From: Neolewinella xylanilytica
Lineage (GTDB): Bacteria; Bacteroidota; Bacteroidia; Chitinophagales; Saprospiraceae
Assembly (NCBI RefSeq): GCF_002934605.1
Contig: NZ_PTJC01000007.1
Span: 248,001-312,000, forward strand
Reading direction: 5' to 3'
Length of the DNA stretch: 64,000 bases
The first letter of the stretch is position 1; every line of letters starts with the position of its first letter. A program made the translations under genes and the position numbers. This document shows, one piece after another, positions 52,326 to 57,729 of this stretch. Under the pieces are notes generated by a model. That model did no database searches, was not told the DNA's origin, and worked only from the letters and a program-made list of their open reading frames with translations.

Positions 52326-52360
52326 AAACCGGGCCGTCCAGGGTGGGCGGCCCGGTTTTT
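52326..52360 (+). terminator. Rho-independent terminator after the beta-helix gene
   Basis: AAACCGGGCC(G) / (C)GGCCCGGTTTTT with an interrupting loop, ending in a T run. It lies 26 bases after the stop. Confidence 0.88.
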
Positions 52361-52386
52361 ATTTACGGTCGCTAACGATGGCCTCC

Positions 52387-52410
52387 TGCTCCTGCGCTCC
52401 GCCGCAAAAT
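52387..52410 (+). repeat. GC-rich dispersed motif (partial)
   Basis: GCTCCTGCGCTCCGCCGCAA is like the copy at 8497-8520 but diverges at the 3' end. It lies between the beta-helix terminator and the arginine operon promoter. Confidence 0.5.
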
Positions 52411-52444
52411 GAACTTTGGCGTGCGCGAATCGTATTAATTCCCC

Positions 52445-52452
52445 TAACTTTG
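52445..52452 (+). promoter_or_regulatory. -7 promoter box of the arginine operon
   Basis: TAACTTTG matches TAnnTTTG. It lies five bases before the leader peptide ATG, so transcription would start at or near the peptide start. A TTTG 26 bases upstream is further than the usual 19-21. Confidence 0.55.
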
Positions 52453-52456
52453 CAGC

Positions 52457-52504
52457 ATGTCTCAGGTATCCAATCGCATCCGCCTGCTTAGGCGAAGGAT
52501 ATAG
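52457..52504 (+). CDS. Arginine-rich leader peptide of the arginine operon
   Basis: A 15-codon frame encodes MSQVSNRIRLLRRRI and stops at TAG. Five of fifteen residues are Arg (CGC, CGC, AGG, CGA, AGG), including three in a row. It sits 130 bases before a GNAT gene that heads an arginine biosynthetic operon. A CGCCT/AGGCG hairpin (52481-52494) overlaps the Arg codons. This matches the logic of leader-peptide attenuation: ribosomes stalled by low charged tRNA-Arg would alter downstream RNA folding. I see the peptide and hairpins directly; the regulatory role is inferred. Some of the Arg density could be chance, but position and the RRR run argue against it. Confidence 0.7.
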   Translation: MSQVSNRIRLLRRRI

Positions 52505-52633
52505 TACGCTTCCCGTCCCGATCGTTCTCGGGACCCGGAGGCCCCGGCATGCGTTGCCGCCCCTCTCCCGATACCCCCACTTAATAACTCCCTTCGACCC
52601 GCCACCCCACCGGTCGTCCTTTTTCCTTTCCCT
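52505..52633 (+). promoter_or_regulatory. Putative attenuator leader RNA of the arginine operon
   Basis: The segment contains a perfect 7-bp stem GTCCCGA/TCGGGAC (52515-52534). A stem CGGCA/TGCCG is at 52545-52559. A weaker CGACC/GGTCG stem (52595-52616) is followed by TCCTTTTT just before the GNAT ATG. The TCGGGA arm could alternatively pair with TCCCGA at 52566-52571, giving mutually exclusive folds. No very strong terminator is seen, so control could act on transcription or on translation initiation. Confidence 0.5.
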
Positions 52634-53212
52634 ATGCAAATTAAGATACTGGTCGCCCAGCCGGAACATACCGTATTCGCCCGGGCAATTTGTGATTTGA
52701 TTGAAGAATCAGCGCGTGCACGCGGTACGGGTATTGCTAAGCGAAAACCGGAATACGTAGAGGAGAAAATGCTTACCGGCAAGGCGATCATTGCGCTGGT
52801 GGACGGTGAGATCGGCGGCTTCAGCTACATCGAAACCTGGGAGCACGGCAAGTACGTGGCCAACTCCGGCCTGATCGTTAATCCCGCGTTCCGCCGGCAC
52901 GGACTGGCGCGGCGAATCAAGGCGGCCATCTTCAAGCTATCCCGCACCAAGTACCCGGAGGCAAAGATATTCGGCATCACCACCAGCCTGCCGGTCATGA
53001 AGATCAACAGCGACCTGGGATACCGTCCGGTCACCTTCAGCGAGCTCACCCAGGACGATGCCTTCTGGGGTGGTTGCAAAACCTGTCCGAATTACGATAT
53101 CCTGGAGCGCAACCAGCGCCGGATGTGCCTCTGCACCGCCATGATGGCCCCCAGCGCCCTACAGGCGAAGAAGATGGAGGTAGACCTGACCGATATGATC
53201 GTGGAAGGGTAG
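52634..53212 (+). CDS. GNAT acyltransferase, first gene of the arginine operon (probable N-acylglutamate synthase)
   Basis: The 192-residue GNAT-fold protein contains YIETWEHGKYVANSGLIVNP and the acyl-CoA motif FRRHGLARRIKAAIFKLSRT. Three Cys in GGCKTCPNYDI and MCLC near the C-terminus are notable. As the leading gene of an argG-argC-argD-argF' operon it most likely makes N-acetyl- or N-succinylglutamate, the first step of acylated arginine synthesis, replacing a classical ArgA. The transcarbamylase's Ala89 points to the succinyl version. The ATG follows the leader directly, without a strong ribosome site. Confidence 0.8.
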   Translation: MQIKILVAQPEHTVFARAICDLIEESARARGTGIAKRKPEYVEEKMLTGKAIIALVDGEIGGFSYIETWEHGKYVANSGLIVNPAFRRHGLARRIKAAIFKLSRTKYPEAKIFGITTSLPVMKINSDLGYRPVTFSELTQDDAFWGGCKTCPNYDILERNQRRMCLCTAMMAPSALQAKKMEVDLTDMIVEG

Positions 53213-53294: not shown

Positions 53295-54482
53295 TTGAAG
53301 AAGATCGTTCTGGCTTACTCCGGTGGCCTCGATACCAGTTTTTGCGTCAAGCACCTCACCGAAAAAGGATACGAGGTGCACGCCCTGACCGTCGATACCG
53401 GTGGGTTTTCTCCATCGGAGCTGAAAGAAATGGAACAGCGCGCCTTGAAACTCGGGGCCGCTTCCTACAAAAGCGTCGATGTAACCGGCGAATATTACGA
53501 TGAGTGCCTGCGCTTTCTGGTTTACGGCAACTGCCTCCGCTACCAAACCTACCCGATGTCCGTAAGTGCCGAGCGGATGTTCCAGGCCATGACCACCGCC
53601 CGCTACGCCGTGGAGATCGGAGCCGACGGCGTGGCCCACGGTAGTACCGGCGCCGGCAACGATCAGGTGCGCTTCGACCTGGCCTTCGAACTGAGCGGAC
53701 GAGAATTGGAGATCATCACGCCCATCCGCGACCTGAAGTTGTCGCGGCAGGAGGAAGTCGATTACCTCGCCAAGCACGGGCTGCAGTGGCCTGAAAAGAA
53801 GGGAACTTACAGCATCAACGCCGGACTGTGGGGAACCTCGGTCGGAGGAGCGGAAACGCTGACGAGCGATAAATCACTTCCGGAAGACGCCTGGCCCGTC
53901 CAGGTTACGGAAACCGAGCCCCGCAAACTGGACCTCCACTTTACCGAGGGCCAATTCACCGGCTTCGACGATCAGGAATTCGACGGACCGGTAGCCGCCA
54001 TCAAGGCGCTCGAAAAACTGGCCGCCCCCTTTGGCATCGGACGGGACATCCACGTCGGGGATACGATTATCGGTATCAAGGGGCGGGTAGGCTTCGCCGC
54101 CGCCGCCGCCGTGCTCATCATCAAGGGCCACCACCTCCTGGAGAAGCATACCCTGGGTAAATGGCAGCTTTTTTGGAAGGAGCAACTGAGCAATTGGTAC
54201 GGTATGATGCTCCACGAAGGGCAGTTCCTGGACCCGGTGATGCGGGACGTAGAGGCCTTCCTGGAAAGTTCGCAGACGACCGTCAACGGAACGGTTCACG
54301 TCACGCTACACCCCTACCGCTATGTGCTCGACGGCATCAACTCCAGCGACGACCTGCTGGGCGGTGGCTTCGGCTCCTACGGGGAAATGAATAATGGCTG
54401 GTCGGGCGAAGACGTCCGCGGCTTCACCAAGATCCTGAGCGTCCCGGGGCGCATTCGGAACGCCGTACAACAGAACAAATGA
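53295..54482 (+). CDS. argG: Argininosuccinate synthase
   Basis: This enzyme joins citrulline and aspartate with ATP. The ATP-pyrophosphatase loop AYSGGLDTS is at residues 7-15; other blocks are HGSTGAGNDQVRFDL and the DGINSSDDLL region near the C-terminus. The 395 residues are typical. The start codon is TTG: the frame begins exactly at the family N-terminus (KKIVLAYSGG). It lies 82 bases after the GNAT gene and overlaps argC by four bases (ATGA). Its position second in the operon is usual in Bacteroidota. Confidence 0.96.
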   Translation: MKKIVLAYSGGLDTSFCVKHLTEKGYEVHALTVDTGGFSPSELKEMEQRALKLGAASYKSVDVTGEYYDECLRFLVYGNCLRYQTYPMSVSAERMFQAMTTARYAVEIGADGVAHGSTGAGNDQVRFDLAFELSGRELEIITPIRDLKLSRQEEVDYLAKHGLQWPEKKGTYSINAGLWGTSVGGAETLTSDKSLPEDAWPVQVTETEPRKLDLHFTEGQFTGFDDQEFDGPVAAIKALEKLAAPFGIGRDIHVGDTIIGIKGRVGFAAAAAVLIIKGHHLLEKHTLGKWQLFWKEQLSNWYGMMLHEGQFLDPVMRDVEAFLESSQTTVNGTVHVTLHPYRYVLDGINSSDDLLGGGFGSYGEMNNGWSGEDVRGFTKILSVPGRIRNAVQQNK

Positions 54483-55444
54483 AACGCATAGGCATCATCG
54501 GCGGGGGCGGATATACGGCCGGGGAGTTGCTGCGCATCCTGGTGCACCACCCGGAGGTGGAGATCGCCTTCGTGGAGAGCGGCAGCCAGTCCGGAAAGGC
54601 CATCACCGAAGTGCATTCCGACCTGGTGGGCGAAACGGAGCTGACCTTCACGGGCTCGGCGGGGACCGCCCTCGGCGACGTAGACGCCATTTTTCTCTGT
54701 ATGGGCCACGGCAAGTCACGTGGCTGGGTAGAAGCCCATCGCCCCCGGCAGAGCCAGTTGGTTGTAGATTTAAGCACCGACTACCGGATTGACGAGAGCT
54801 GGGTCTATGGACTCCCCGAGATCAACCGGGAAGCCATTACCACGGCGAAACGTATCGCCAACCCCGGGTGCTTCGCTACGGCCATCCAGCTGGCGCTGCT
54901 CCCCCTGGCGGCGGCCGGGCTCGCGGAAGGGGAGGTGCACGTGAACGGCATCACCGGCAGTACCGGGGCGGGACAGAGCCCCTCACCCACGACCCACTTC
55001 AGCTGGCGTAACGCCAACGTGAGCGTGTACAAACCCTTCGGGCATCAGCACCTCGCGGAGATCGGTCGCAGCGCCGGACAAGTAGGCCGAACAGCCACCG
55101 AAAATATTCATTTCCTGCCGGTACGCGGCCCCTTCGCCCGCGGCATCCTGGTGACCTGCTACCTCGACACGGACCGGTCGGAAACCGAGCTACGGCAAAT
55201 CTTCCGCGACTTCTACCACGGTGCCGCCTTCACCCACGTCACCGACGACACGATCAACCTCAAGCAGGTGGTCAATACCAATAAGGGACTCGTACAGGTA
55301 GAAAAGCACGGCGACAAGGTGCTGGTCACCTCCGCCATCGACAACCTGCTCAAGGGGGCCAGCGGCCAGGCGGTACAGAATATGAACCTGGCTCTCGGCC
55401 TGCCGGAAGACCTGGGACTTAGACTTAAGGCCTCCATGTTTTAG
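54479..55444 (+). CDS. argC: N-acyl-gamma-glutamyl-phosphate reductase
   Basis: The enzyme reduces N-acylglutamyl phosphate to the semialdehyde with NADPH. The Rossmann start is GIIGGGGYTAGELLRIL. The catalytic Cys is in IANPGCFATAIQLALLPL, and a second conserved block is GSTGAGQSPSPTTHFSWRN. At 321 residues it has the length of the short ArgC type. Its ATG overlaps the argG stop. It is followed by a short palindromic repeat and then argD. Confidence 0.95.
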   Translation: MKRIGIIGGGGYTAGELLRILVHHPEVEIAFVESGSQSGKAITEVHSDLVGETELTFTGSAGTALGDVDAIFLCMGHGKSRGWVEAHRPRQSQLVVDLSTDYRIDESWVYGLPEINREAITTAKRIANPGCFATAIQLALLPLAAAGLAEGEVHVNGITGSTGAGQSPSPTTHFSWRNANVSVYKPFGHQHLAEIGRSAGQVGRTATENIHFLPVRGPFARGILVTCYLDTDRSETELRQIFRDFYHGAAFTHVTDDTINLKQVVNTNKGLVQVEKHGDKVLVTSAIDNLLKGASGQAVQNMNLALGLPEDLGLRLKASMF

Positions 55445-55551: not shown

Positions 55552-56694
55552 ATGCAACTCTTCGACGTCTACTCCCTCTACCCCATAGAGCCCGTCCGCG
55601 GCGAGGGCGCTTACGTATTCACCGAGGATGGGACGAGGTACCTCGATTGTTACGGCGGCCACGCGGTGATCAGCATCGGACACGCCCATCCCCACTACGT
55701 GAAGCTGATTTCGGAGCAGGTGGCTAAGCTGGGCTTTTACAGCAACAGCGTGGAAAACCCCCTGCAGCGGGAACTGGCCGATAAACTCGGGCGGCTTTCC
55801 GGTTTGGACGATTACCAGCTCTTTTTGGTGAGCAGCGGAGCGGAAGCGAACGAAAACGCGCTGAAGCTGGCCAGCTTCGAGACCGGGCGCAGCCGGATCA
55901 TCGCTTTCAAAGGCGGTTTTCACGGCCGTACCTCGGCCGCGGTCAACGCCACGGATAACGAGGCTATCAAGGCACCGATCAACAAGAACTACCCGGTTAC
56001 CTTTCTCGAAATAAACGATTTGGGCGCCGTAGCGCGGGAGCTGCAGAAGGGCGACGTGGCGGCCGTCATCATCGAGGGTATTCAGGGTATCGGTGGCATT
56101 CACGTACCGGACGCCGACTACCTGGAGGCCCTGCCCGATCTCTGCCACGAGAATGGCGCGCTGCTGATCCTGGACGAGGTCCAGTCGGGATACGGGCGGA
56201 GCGGTAAGTTCTTCGCCTTCCAACATAGCAAGGTGCGCCCCGATATCATCACCATGGCCAAGGGAATGGGCAACGGCTTTCCGATCGGGGGGGTACTCAT
56301 CGCTCCGGAGATCGAAGCGAAGTCCGGCATGTTGGGCACCACCTTCGGGGGCAGCCACCTCGCCTGCGCGGCGGGCATCGCCGTACTGGACGTGATCGAA
56401 CGCGAGGGCTTGCTCGAAAATGCCGTGGAGCAGGGCAATTACCTAATGGAAGCCATGCGCGCAACCGGCTCCTTCCAGGAAGTCCGGGGCCTTGGCCTGA
56501 TGATCGGCCTACAGATGGAGGAGCCGATCGGGGAACTCCGTAAAAAATTATTATTCGAGGAAAGCGTCTTTACCGGTTCGGCGAAGGATCCGAATACGAT
56601 CCGCCTGTTGCCGCCCCTAAACTTTACCCAGGAACAGTGCGACCGGGTGGTGGAAGCGTTTGCATCGGTGTCTGCGCTCCGTACCGTCAAATAA
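55552..56694 (+). CDS. argD: Acetylornithine/succinylornithine aminotransferase
   Basis: This PLP-dependent class III aminotransferase converts the N-acyl glutamate semialdehyde to N-acylornithine. Features are CYGGHAVISIGHAHPHYV, the cofactor loop VSSGAEANENALKLA, ILDEVQSGYGRSGKFFAF and the PLP lysine in ITMAKGMGNGFPIGG. The 380 residues are typical. It is in the same orientation as its neighbours and separated from argC by 107 bases holding a palindromic repeat. Whether acetyl or succinyl substrates are preferred cannot be read from this sequence. Confidence 0.95.
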   Translation: MQLFDVYSLYPIEPVRGEGAYVFTEDGTRYLDCYGGHAVISIGHAHPHYVKLISEQVAKLGFYSNSVENPLQRELADKLGRLSGLDDYQLFLVSSGAEANENALKLASFETGRSRIIAFKGGFHGRTSAAVNATDNEAIKAPINKNYPVTFLEINDLGAVARELQKGDVAAVIIEGIQGIGGIHVPDADYLEALPDLCHENGALLILDEVQSGYGRSGKFFAFQHSKVRPDIITMAKGMGNGFPIGGVLIAPEIEAKSGMLGTTFGGSHLACAAGIAVLDVIEREGLLENAVEQGNYLMEAMRATGSFQEVRGLGLMIGLQMEEPIGELRKKLLFEESVFTGSAKDPNTIRLLPPLNFTQEQCDRVVEAFASVSALRTVK

Positions 56695-56787: not shown

Positions 56788-57729
56788 ATGAACAACTTCC
56801 TTTCCGTTAAGGACGCCACCGACATCAACCACCTCATCGAGCGGGCACGCTACTTCAAGACCCACCCGCACGAGAACGCTTACATCGGTCAGCACAAAAC
56901 GCTCATCAACCTCTTCTTCAACCCCAGTCTGCGCACCCGCCTCAGCACGGAAAAGGCCGGGACTACCCTAGGTTTCCAGGTAATCACCATGGATATGGCC
57001 GGTGGCTGGAAGCTGGAATTCGAAGACGGCGTCGTGATGAACTTGGACCGCGCCGAGCACGTAAAGGAAGCCGCCGGCGTACTGAGCCAGTACTGCGACA
57101 TCCTGGCCGTACGCTCCTTCCCCGGCCTGGAAGACCGGAATGCCGACTACGAGGATCGCATCATCCACGCCTTCCGGAAGTACGCTACGGTACCGGTGGT
57201 TAGCCTGGAATCGGCCACCCGTCACCCCCTGCAGAGTCTGGCCGACTGCATCACCATCGCCGAACACCGCAAGACGGAACGCCCGAAGGTTGTACTCACC
57301 TGGGCCCCCCACCCCCGCCAATTGCCCCAGGCCGTGCCGAATAGCTTCGCGGAATGGATGACCGGCTGGGACGAGGTGGATCTCGTGATCGCGAACCCGG
57401 AAGGCTTCGACCTGGCACCGGAATTTACGGCCGGGGCGGAGGTCCTGCACGATCAGGCGGAAGCCCTGCGGGGCGCCGACTTCGTCTACGCCAAGAACTG
57501 GTCGGCCTATGAACCGTACGGCGCCACCACCGATCGGACTGACTGGCTCGTCGACACCGACAAAATGGCCCTGACCAACGATGCCTACTTCATGCACTGC
57601 CTGCCCGTGCGGCGCAACGTAGTCGTCTCGGACGGGGTGCTGGATAGCCCGCGATCCTTGGTGTTGCAGCAGGCGAATAACCGGACGTGGTCGGCGGCGG
57701 CGGTGTTGGAGGCGTTGCTGGTGAGGTAG
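56788..57729 (+). CDS. argF': N-acylornithine carbamoyltransferase (argF'), predicted succinylornithine type
   Basis: The 313-residue protein is a transcarbamylase of the AOTCase/SOTCase branch. The carbamoyl-phosphate loop is FFNPSLRTRLS; other blocks are ATRHPLQSLADCITI and FMHCLPVRRNVVVSD. The position that separates acetyl- from succinylornithine enzymes (Glu92 in Xanthomonas, Pro90 in Bacteroides fragilis) aligns with Ala89 here (NLDRAEHVKEA). Mutating that Glu to Ala turned the Xanthomonas enzyme into a succinylornithine enzyme, so N-succinylornithine is the predicted substrate. It is the last arginine gene here. Confidence 0.92.
   Translation: MNNFLSVKDATDINHLIERARYFKTHPHENAYIGQHKTLINLFFNPSLRTRLSTEKAGTTLGFQVITMDMAGGWKLEFEDGVVMNLDRAEHVKEAAGVLSQYCDILAVRSFPGLEDRNADYEDRIIHAFRKYATVPVVSLESATRHPLQSLADCITIAEHRKTERPKVVLTWAPHPRQLPQAVPNSFAEWMTGWDEVDLVIANPEGFDLAPEFTAGAEVLHDQAEALRGADFVYAKNWSAYEPYGATTDRTDWLVDTDKMALTNDAYFMHCLPVRRNVVVSDGVLDSPRSLVLQQANNRTWSAAAVLEALLVR

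Follow-up and report, generated by a model that had tools for sequence, protein, structure and literature searches.

A conserved Arg-rich leader, probably leaderless, as a candidate attenuator of the arginine biosynthesis operon in Neolewinella xylanilytica

The arginine biosynthesis operon of Neolewinella xylanilytica is preceded by a short Arg-rich reading frame, which is probably part of a ribosome-mediated attenuator that senses charged tRNA-Arg and controls the operon, most likely from a leaderless transcript. We assign this reading a probability of roughly 0.78. The frame, its Arg codons and its spacing from the promoter box are conserved, and three helices of the leader RNA, designated P1, P0 and P2, carry compensatory base changes. 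The locus is situated within a 64,000-nt stretch of contig NZ_PTJC01000007.1 (positions 248,001 to 312,000; assembly GCF_002934605.1), referred to below as the window; all coordinates are counted from its first letter.

The leader and the arginine operon

Inspection of the nucleotide sequence revealed TAACTTTG at positions 52445-52452, followed after a 4-base gap by the ATG (52457) of a short frame, MSQVSNRIRLLRRRI plus stop codon (52457-52504). An earlier note on this DNA had described here a promoter box and a 15-codon frame with five Arg codons, three of them consecutive, and all of these are indeed present at 52445-52504. The Arg codons are, in order, CGC, CGC, AGG, CGA and AGG, the final three being adjacent. 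The genes located 3′ of the leader are arranged in the order GNAT-argG-argC-argD-argF′, and the gap between the leader stop and the GNAT gene exceeds 100 nt in the window. The arginine operon placed here by the earlier note is confirmed for argC and argF′, whose matches lie over the cut-offs, while argG and argD are strong matches below them. The predicted features are as follows:

52445-52452, plus strand: -7 box TAACTTTG of the Bacteroidota sigma-A type (consensus TAnnTTTG), assigned from the sequence, the box position reported in PMC9723704 and the spacing in the genus
52457-52504, plus strand: leader-peptide frame MSQVSNRIRLLRRRI plus stop, 15 codons, five for Arg, predicted leaderless (sequence; genus scan)
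52634-53212, plus strand: GNAT-like acetyltransferase, first gene of the operon, named by eye from the sequence and not from a family search
53295-54482, plus strand: argG, argininosuccinate synthase (best E 3e-79, every match under the curated cut-offs)
54479-55444, plus strand: argC, N-acetyl-gamma-glutamyl-phosphate reductase (TIGR01850, above cut-off)
55552-56694, plus strand: argD, acetylornithine transaminase (best E 9e-106, under the curated cut-offs)
56788-57729, plus strand: argF′, N-acetylornithine carbamoyltransferase (NF003384, above cut-off)

No NCBIfam model matched the GNAT gene (52634-53212) at E 0.001. The encoded protein is 98% identical to that of the best named relative, Lewinella sp. 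IMCC34191, and has a Cys-rich end (GGCKTCPNY...MCLCTAMM). As a guess, these bacteria may use it as their acetylglutamate synthase. A strong terminator-like sequence, GGGCCGTCC...GGGCGGCCCGG followed by TTTTT, was recognized by eye at 52329-52364, between the upstream gene for a T9SS-sorted protein and the leader promoter.

The TAnnTTTG box spans positions -12 to -5 in F. psychrophilum (PMC9723704). With the same spacing, +1 is predicted at 52457, i.e. the A of the leader AUG. From this position of the box, the leader mRNA is probably leaderless, with the peptide read from the first base. The box precedes the leader ATG by 4-6 nt in 20 leaders of the genus, and Bacteroidota have been described as being without Shine-Dalgarno signals (PMC6847099, PMC3155529).

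Conservation of the leader in the genus and family

The regions upstream of the GNAT gene were screened with a strict scan, requiring an ATG 3-10 nt past a TAnnTTTG-like box and a frame of 8-45 codons with at least 4 Arg; dinucleotide shuffles and reverse complements of the same regions served as chance controls. This analysis revealed the leader in 20/21 genomes of the genus (vs 0/21 reverse complements and 2/420 shuffles), at 51 of 85 loci in other Saprospiraceae (0/85 and 6/1700, respectively) and at 14 of 81 loci in other families of the phylum (1/81 and 6/1620). The 85 loci are all places in the family, outside the genus, that carry this GNAT, two of them with less than 250 nt upstream; the GNAT search matched 89 of 199 family genomes, and genomes without this GNAT stand outside the leader counts. 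The 81 loci were picked by hand from the GNAT places of the phylum so as to cover many genera. Because the leader is found in 20/21 genomes and at 51/85 loci, and the shuffle rate of the strict scan is ~0.4%, the presence of an Arg-rich leader upstream of GNAT is not due to chance.

In the single genus genome missed by the strict scan (G206), the leader starts with GTG, belongs to the wider Saprospiraceae type and ends in an Arg-rich stretch; the genus count therefore becomes 21/21 once this start codon is allowed. Some Arg-rich short frame is also present at 18 of the 34 strict-negative loci of other Saprospiraceae, in a count made without shuffle control, with GTG and TTG starts allowed and no box needed.

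The frame and its Arg run are kept in all 20 genus leaders while the sequence drifts: the longest run is three Arg in 19 leaders and four in one, and Arg codons are swapped synonymously (e.g. AGG to CGA). The earlier note had set non-conservation in close relatives as a refutation of its idea; the opposite was found, as both the frame and the Arg codons are retained throughout the genus. The alignment it had proposed as a check likewise shows Arg codons kept with synonymous switches, and it shows compensatory changes in P1, P0 and P2, not in the stems that the note had named.

RNA structure of the leader

Folding of the region 52457-52633 with RNAfold gave -49.1 kcal/mol (z -2.40), and 2/200 shuffles were equally good. 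The elements of the leader RNA are:

52465-52470, plus strand: 5′ arm of P1, GGTATC (from the last base of codon 3 to the second base of codon 5)
52481-52494, plus strand: hairpin P0, CGCCT-GCTT-AGGCG, within the Arg codons (double changes at 3 of 5 pairs)
52508-52542, plus strand: hairpin P2, past the stop codon, with a conserved outer stem (52508-52513 with 52537-52542)
52545-52559, plus strand: hairpin P3, of variable sequence in the genus (single-sequence folds only)
52570-52575, plus strand: 3′ arm of P1, GATACC (covariation in 20 leaders; MFE in 17/20)
52576-52633, plus strand: C/U-rich, G-poor tract reaching the GNAT start (48% C, 9% G), a possible Rho-loading stretch
52595-52616, plus strand: weak hairpin P4, CGACC/GGTCG, resembling a terminator, with TCCTTTTTCC behind it (from the fold)

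The long-range helix P1 is part of the single-sequence MFE structure of 17 of the 20 genus leaders, and is absent from that of L114, L119 and L124. With the 7-nt arms placed by hand in a fixed register, which favours structure, 120 of 140 cells are paired in the 20 leaders, with 12 double-change cells at 5 positions; the RNAfold, MFE and RNAalifold results are independent of this placement. Shuffling of the 3′ arm never reproduced the paired total or the double-change total (0/20000 each), and matched the number of positions in 155/20000 cases and the number of pair types in 48/20000. When identical arm pairs were counted once (15 left), 1/20000 shuffles matched the double-change total. No more than 55 cells were paired after the arm was shifted by 1 to 3 bases. 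The outermost and innermost pairs of P1 are poorly conserved.

RNAalifold, run on alignment A2 (in which L122 is out of register at P1), found P1, P0 and P2 unprompted, with 17 pairs, 9 of them showing double changes. Over the counted structure, 90.3% of 400 cells are paired and 24 are double-change cells, and none of 500 shuffles scored as high. A looser test of own versus permuted pairing gave 3/20000 for the genus and 62/20000 for its 12 divergent members.

The stems named in the earlier note were located at 52515-52521 (GTCCCGA), 52528-52534 (TCGGGAC) and 52566-52571 (TCCCGA). Their proposed role as a switch, GTCCCGA/TCGGGAC against TCGGGA/TCCCGA, was not supported, as the exact strings occur in only one of the 20 genus leaders, that of the window. 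The first pair forms the inner stem of P2, which is a local extension, and the helices with covariation are others, i.e. P1, P0 and P2. In the folds that were run, the long-range helix can coexist with the hairpin closest to the gene.

A P1-like helix is clear outside the genus in a family of another class (f43): the best leader-downstream helices of nine leaders summed to 175.5, compared with a maximum of 173.5 and a mean of 126.6 in 20000 permutations, ten leaders having been scored and L258, with ambiguous bases and the weakest helix, dropped beforehand. The evidence for such a helix in Christiangramia is suggestive. No clear P1 was found in other Saprospiraceae, which show two overlapping stems after the stop codon instead.

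A search for further copies with the genus RNA model was abandoned as a finder: it matched 4/199 family genomes, all four being genus members, under stricter filters that lose weak matches. Its single match per genome in 20/21 genus genomes corresponds to its own training sequences. Since the model matched only genus members, the RNA form looks genus-specific, and the leader idea is wider. A search of the whole window against Rfam gave one tRNA only, and for 52380-52660 a single match on the other strand (E 1.4), far under the gathering score.

Ribosome-blocked folds and the region preceding the GNAT gene

The presence of a ribosome was mimicked by blocking bases in four leaders (the window and three relatives), giving 28 states. 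A ribosome placed at the AUG or the first Arg codon covers the arm of P1 and excludes the helix by construction, and at the second Arg codon P1 is lost in 3/4 leaders. With the ribosome at R12 and R14 the helix is kept in 4/4 leaders (P1 being allowed over R12-R14), and at the stop codon it forms in 3/4, L002 being the exception. As modelled, P1 lies where it can respond to the ribosome. A stall at the RRR run leaves P1 free, so that gating would fall to the first Arg codons only. One genus leader (L114) has Ser in place of the first of these early Arg codons.

Hairpin P4 was considered as the partner of P1 in a switch and rejected, because it forms in 27/28 blocked states regardless of P1 (the exception is L113 blocked at the AUG); P1 and P4 are not mutually exclusive in the folds of the window and the three relatives. 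A P4-type hairpin followed by four or more T within 10 nt is present in 10/20 genus leaders, under a loop limit of 14 that excludes L115. A consensus terminator scan revealed no terminator on the plus strand. The C minus G fraction of the C/U-rich tract is equalled by 0.08% of the 56-mers of the window, both strands included. In five genus leaders (L004, L118, L120, L121 and L123), P1 and GNAT are separated by nothing but 33-37 nt of C/U-rich sequence with 0-3% G.

Forms of the leader across Bacteroidota

Versions of the Arg leader also occur in other families, including one in another class. They were sought under a loose rule that accepts ATG frames of 5-60 codons with four or more Arg among the last 14 residues and requires no box; 34 of the 81 non-Saprospiraceae loci satisfied it vs 103/1620 shuffles. 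Family f43, from the other class, gave 12/12 (6/240 shuffles) under this rule and 4/12 under the strict scan; the corresponding values for f24 were 8/15 (0/300 shuffles) and 9/15. The loose rule gave 5/7 in f22 (4/140 shuffles), only 2/11 in f20 (8/220) and 0/15 in f23, f28, f29 and f42. Over the phylum sample 67/81 loci fail the strict scan and 47/81 the loose rule, many of them from genomes without ArgR.

Visual inspection of the other Saprospiraceae leaders showed that (i) many end with RRRxxRRP directly before the stop, (ii) the stop lies in or beside the loop of a CGCCC...GGGCG hairpin, and (iii) three segments, A, B and C, come after a CATAT motif, with overlapping A:B and B:C stems. A scripted search detected this overlap above a fixed score in 23/38 segments vs 201/1900 shuffles; the segment was obtained from 38 of 86 loci, and some that were anchored at the wrong motif copy were kept in the count. 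The sequence CATAT(C/T)A appears twice in leaders such as L009, L014 and L026, once among the early codons and once past the stop, ahead of segment A.

Loci of f24 and Christiangramia (L220, L235, L237, L253, L086 and L236) share a post-leader hairpin whose loop is conserved around AGGTGAGTCC while the stems vary; no Rfam family matched L086, L220, L235 or L237. Behind the first leader, a second Arg-rich short frame (MRRRFPRRT or similar) is present at L069, L086, L091 and L097 (at about -120) and at L236 (about -117). From their sequences, the two short Arg frames of these five loci look as if they were tandem arginine leaders.

ArgR and leaders of other amino-acid operons

A search for ArgR (PF02863) gave 0/60 in the genomes of the window and its relatives, with 8/14 controls positive; the completeness of the window's own genome is 97.86%. 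Among 395 genomes of the phylum sample, ArgR is present in 138, this GNAT in 159 and both in 6, an overlap counted by eye that includes one weak case (E 8e-5). This pattern may rest on few evolutionary events. Many genomes of the sample have neither ArgR nor a leader under the scan rules.

Leaders rich in the cognate residues were also identified upstream of other amino-acid genes in the genus, using patterns chosen after a first look at the sequences: WW at trpE in 20/21 genomes (17/420 shuffles) and WWW in 13/21 (0/420), Phe-rich leaders at pheA in 20/21 (24/420), HHH at hisG in 18/21 (1/420), and a run of seven Val/Leu/Ile at ilvD in 9/21 (0/420). Examples, at loci including L302, L349 and L278, are WWW (trpE), FYFWFSFY (pheA) and HHHH (hisG). 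Under the strict box rule, 7/21 trpE, 10/21 pheA and no hisG leaders lie directly behind a box. In the window's own genome, strong hairpins that look like terminators and have T runs (by eye) stand behind the trp, phe and his leaders, unlike at the arg leader, which suggests that transcription attenuation is the local habit.

Proposed mechanism and alternatives

For the transcription start, the translation and stalling of the ribosome, the assignment of the ON and OFF states and the termination step, we infer the following scheme. Transcription would start at the A of the leader AUG and the peptide would be translated from this leaderless 5′ end. With ample arginine, the ribosome would clear the Arg codons and depart; codons 3-5 would then pair with 52570-52575 to form P1, closing a compact fold with P0, P2 and P3 (OFF), and transcription would stop in the C/U-rich stretch ahead of GNAT, at the weak P4 and/or via Rho. 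When arginine is short, a ribosome stalled at the first Arg codons would cover the 5′ arm of P1, open this helix and melt P0, and with P1 open and P0 melted the operon would be transcribed (ON). The arginine leader-peptide attenuator suggested in the earlier note thus gains from the conserved leader, the cognate trp, phe, his and ilv leaders and the failure to find ArgR, and loses the stems named as its switch.

The best surviving alternative, which we nevertheless consider unlikely, retains the same arginine-sensing leader and places its output in the initiation of GNAT translation or in mRNA decay, not in transcription termination. It draws on the lack of a strong terminator, on the five genus leaders with only a C/U-rich tract, and on rbfL of S. 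aureus and, partly, orf34-speF of Salmonella, both of which sense Arg codons and have been reported with such an output (PMC13009471, PMC6386406). Nevertheless, the 3′ arm of P1 ends 33-62 nt ahead of the GNAT start and does not lie over it, and the terminator-like hairpins behind the trp, phe and his leaders of the same genome (by eye) also argue against this output. It is very improbable that the region acts as a structured cis-RNA, either like a riboswitch or by binding a protein, and contains the short frame only incidentally: the strong covariation of several helices would suit it, but Arg-rich leaders persist in Saprospiraceae whose RNA fails the genus model (the 4/199 matches under stricter filters), and the trp, phe, his and ilv leaders contain cognate residues. 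Finally, a frame that is only a helper of reinitiation or upstream translation, a role proposed for leader genes in PMC4833913, or that arose by chance, can practically be dismissed in view of the low shuffle rates, the distance between the leader stop and GNAT, and the cognate amino acids at five pathways.

If the attenuator sensing charged tRNA-Arg is extended beyond this locus, a broader proposal can be made, which we offer tentatively and do not favour at present: a deep class of leaderless arginine attenuators may exist in several Bacteroidota families and be used where ArgR is missing. Bases adjacent to the AUG would pair ~100 nt downstream, and the folding would read ribosome loading, or its hold at the first Arg codons, and not a choice between two neighbouring hairpins. 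If this is true, the architecture would be ancient, given the P1-like helices of a second class of the phylum. The finding suggests a mode of arginine-synthesis control for lineages that lack ArgR, and points to leader-peptide attenuation as a general means of controlling the arg, trp, phe, his and ilv genes in the genus. With its predicted leaderless start and its long-range helix, the design departs from the textbook one and is directly testable.

Comparison with known systems

The earlier note was not aware of a described arginine version in Bacteroidota, and among the top-ranked results of an open-access literature search we likewise found no arginine-operon leader or attenuator described in this phylum. 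The principle is known, but the signal is new in this setting, the start is predicted to be leaderless and the long-range helix is unusual. Ribosome-mediated attenuators of the proteobacterial type govern his, trp, leu, ilv, thr and phe operons. The leader of the window resembles them in having a short frame rich in cognate codons before the cognate operon, and helices placed, as modelled, to feel the ribosome; it differs in its arginine signal, its predicted leaderless start, the long-range helix formed from codons 3-5 and the lack of a strong terminator. The fungal arginine attenuator peptide, which is eukaryotic, acts via the nascent peptide and free arginine. It shares with the window leader the control by arginine through an upstream peptide.

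Two bacterial leaders have been described that sense arginine through Arg codons. Salmonella orf34-speF shares the consecutive Arg codons in the leader and long-range RNA pairing, and Rho is involved there; it differs in serving putrescine synthesis, in a leader starting at +32 with a Shine-Dalgarno sequence, and in its output (PMC6386406). The leader peptide of S. aureus rbfL also senses arginine via Arg codons, but low arginine is repressive there, as pausing prevents a biofilm regulator from being translated (PMC13009471). Neither speF nor rbf is an arginine biosynthesis operon.

Closer to the present host, leader-peptide-like short frames have been mentioned for Bacteroides (PMC7366714). 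For F. psychrophilum, the regions ahead of amino-acid operons have been reported to give strong clues to leader-peptide attenuation, and conserved 5′ elements preceding pheA and hisG are named (PMC9723704). The main-text section of that work does not name arginine, and the system it describes shares with the leader of the window both the phylum and the promoter type.
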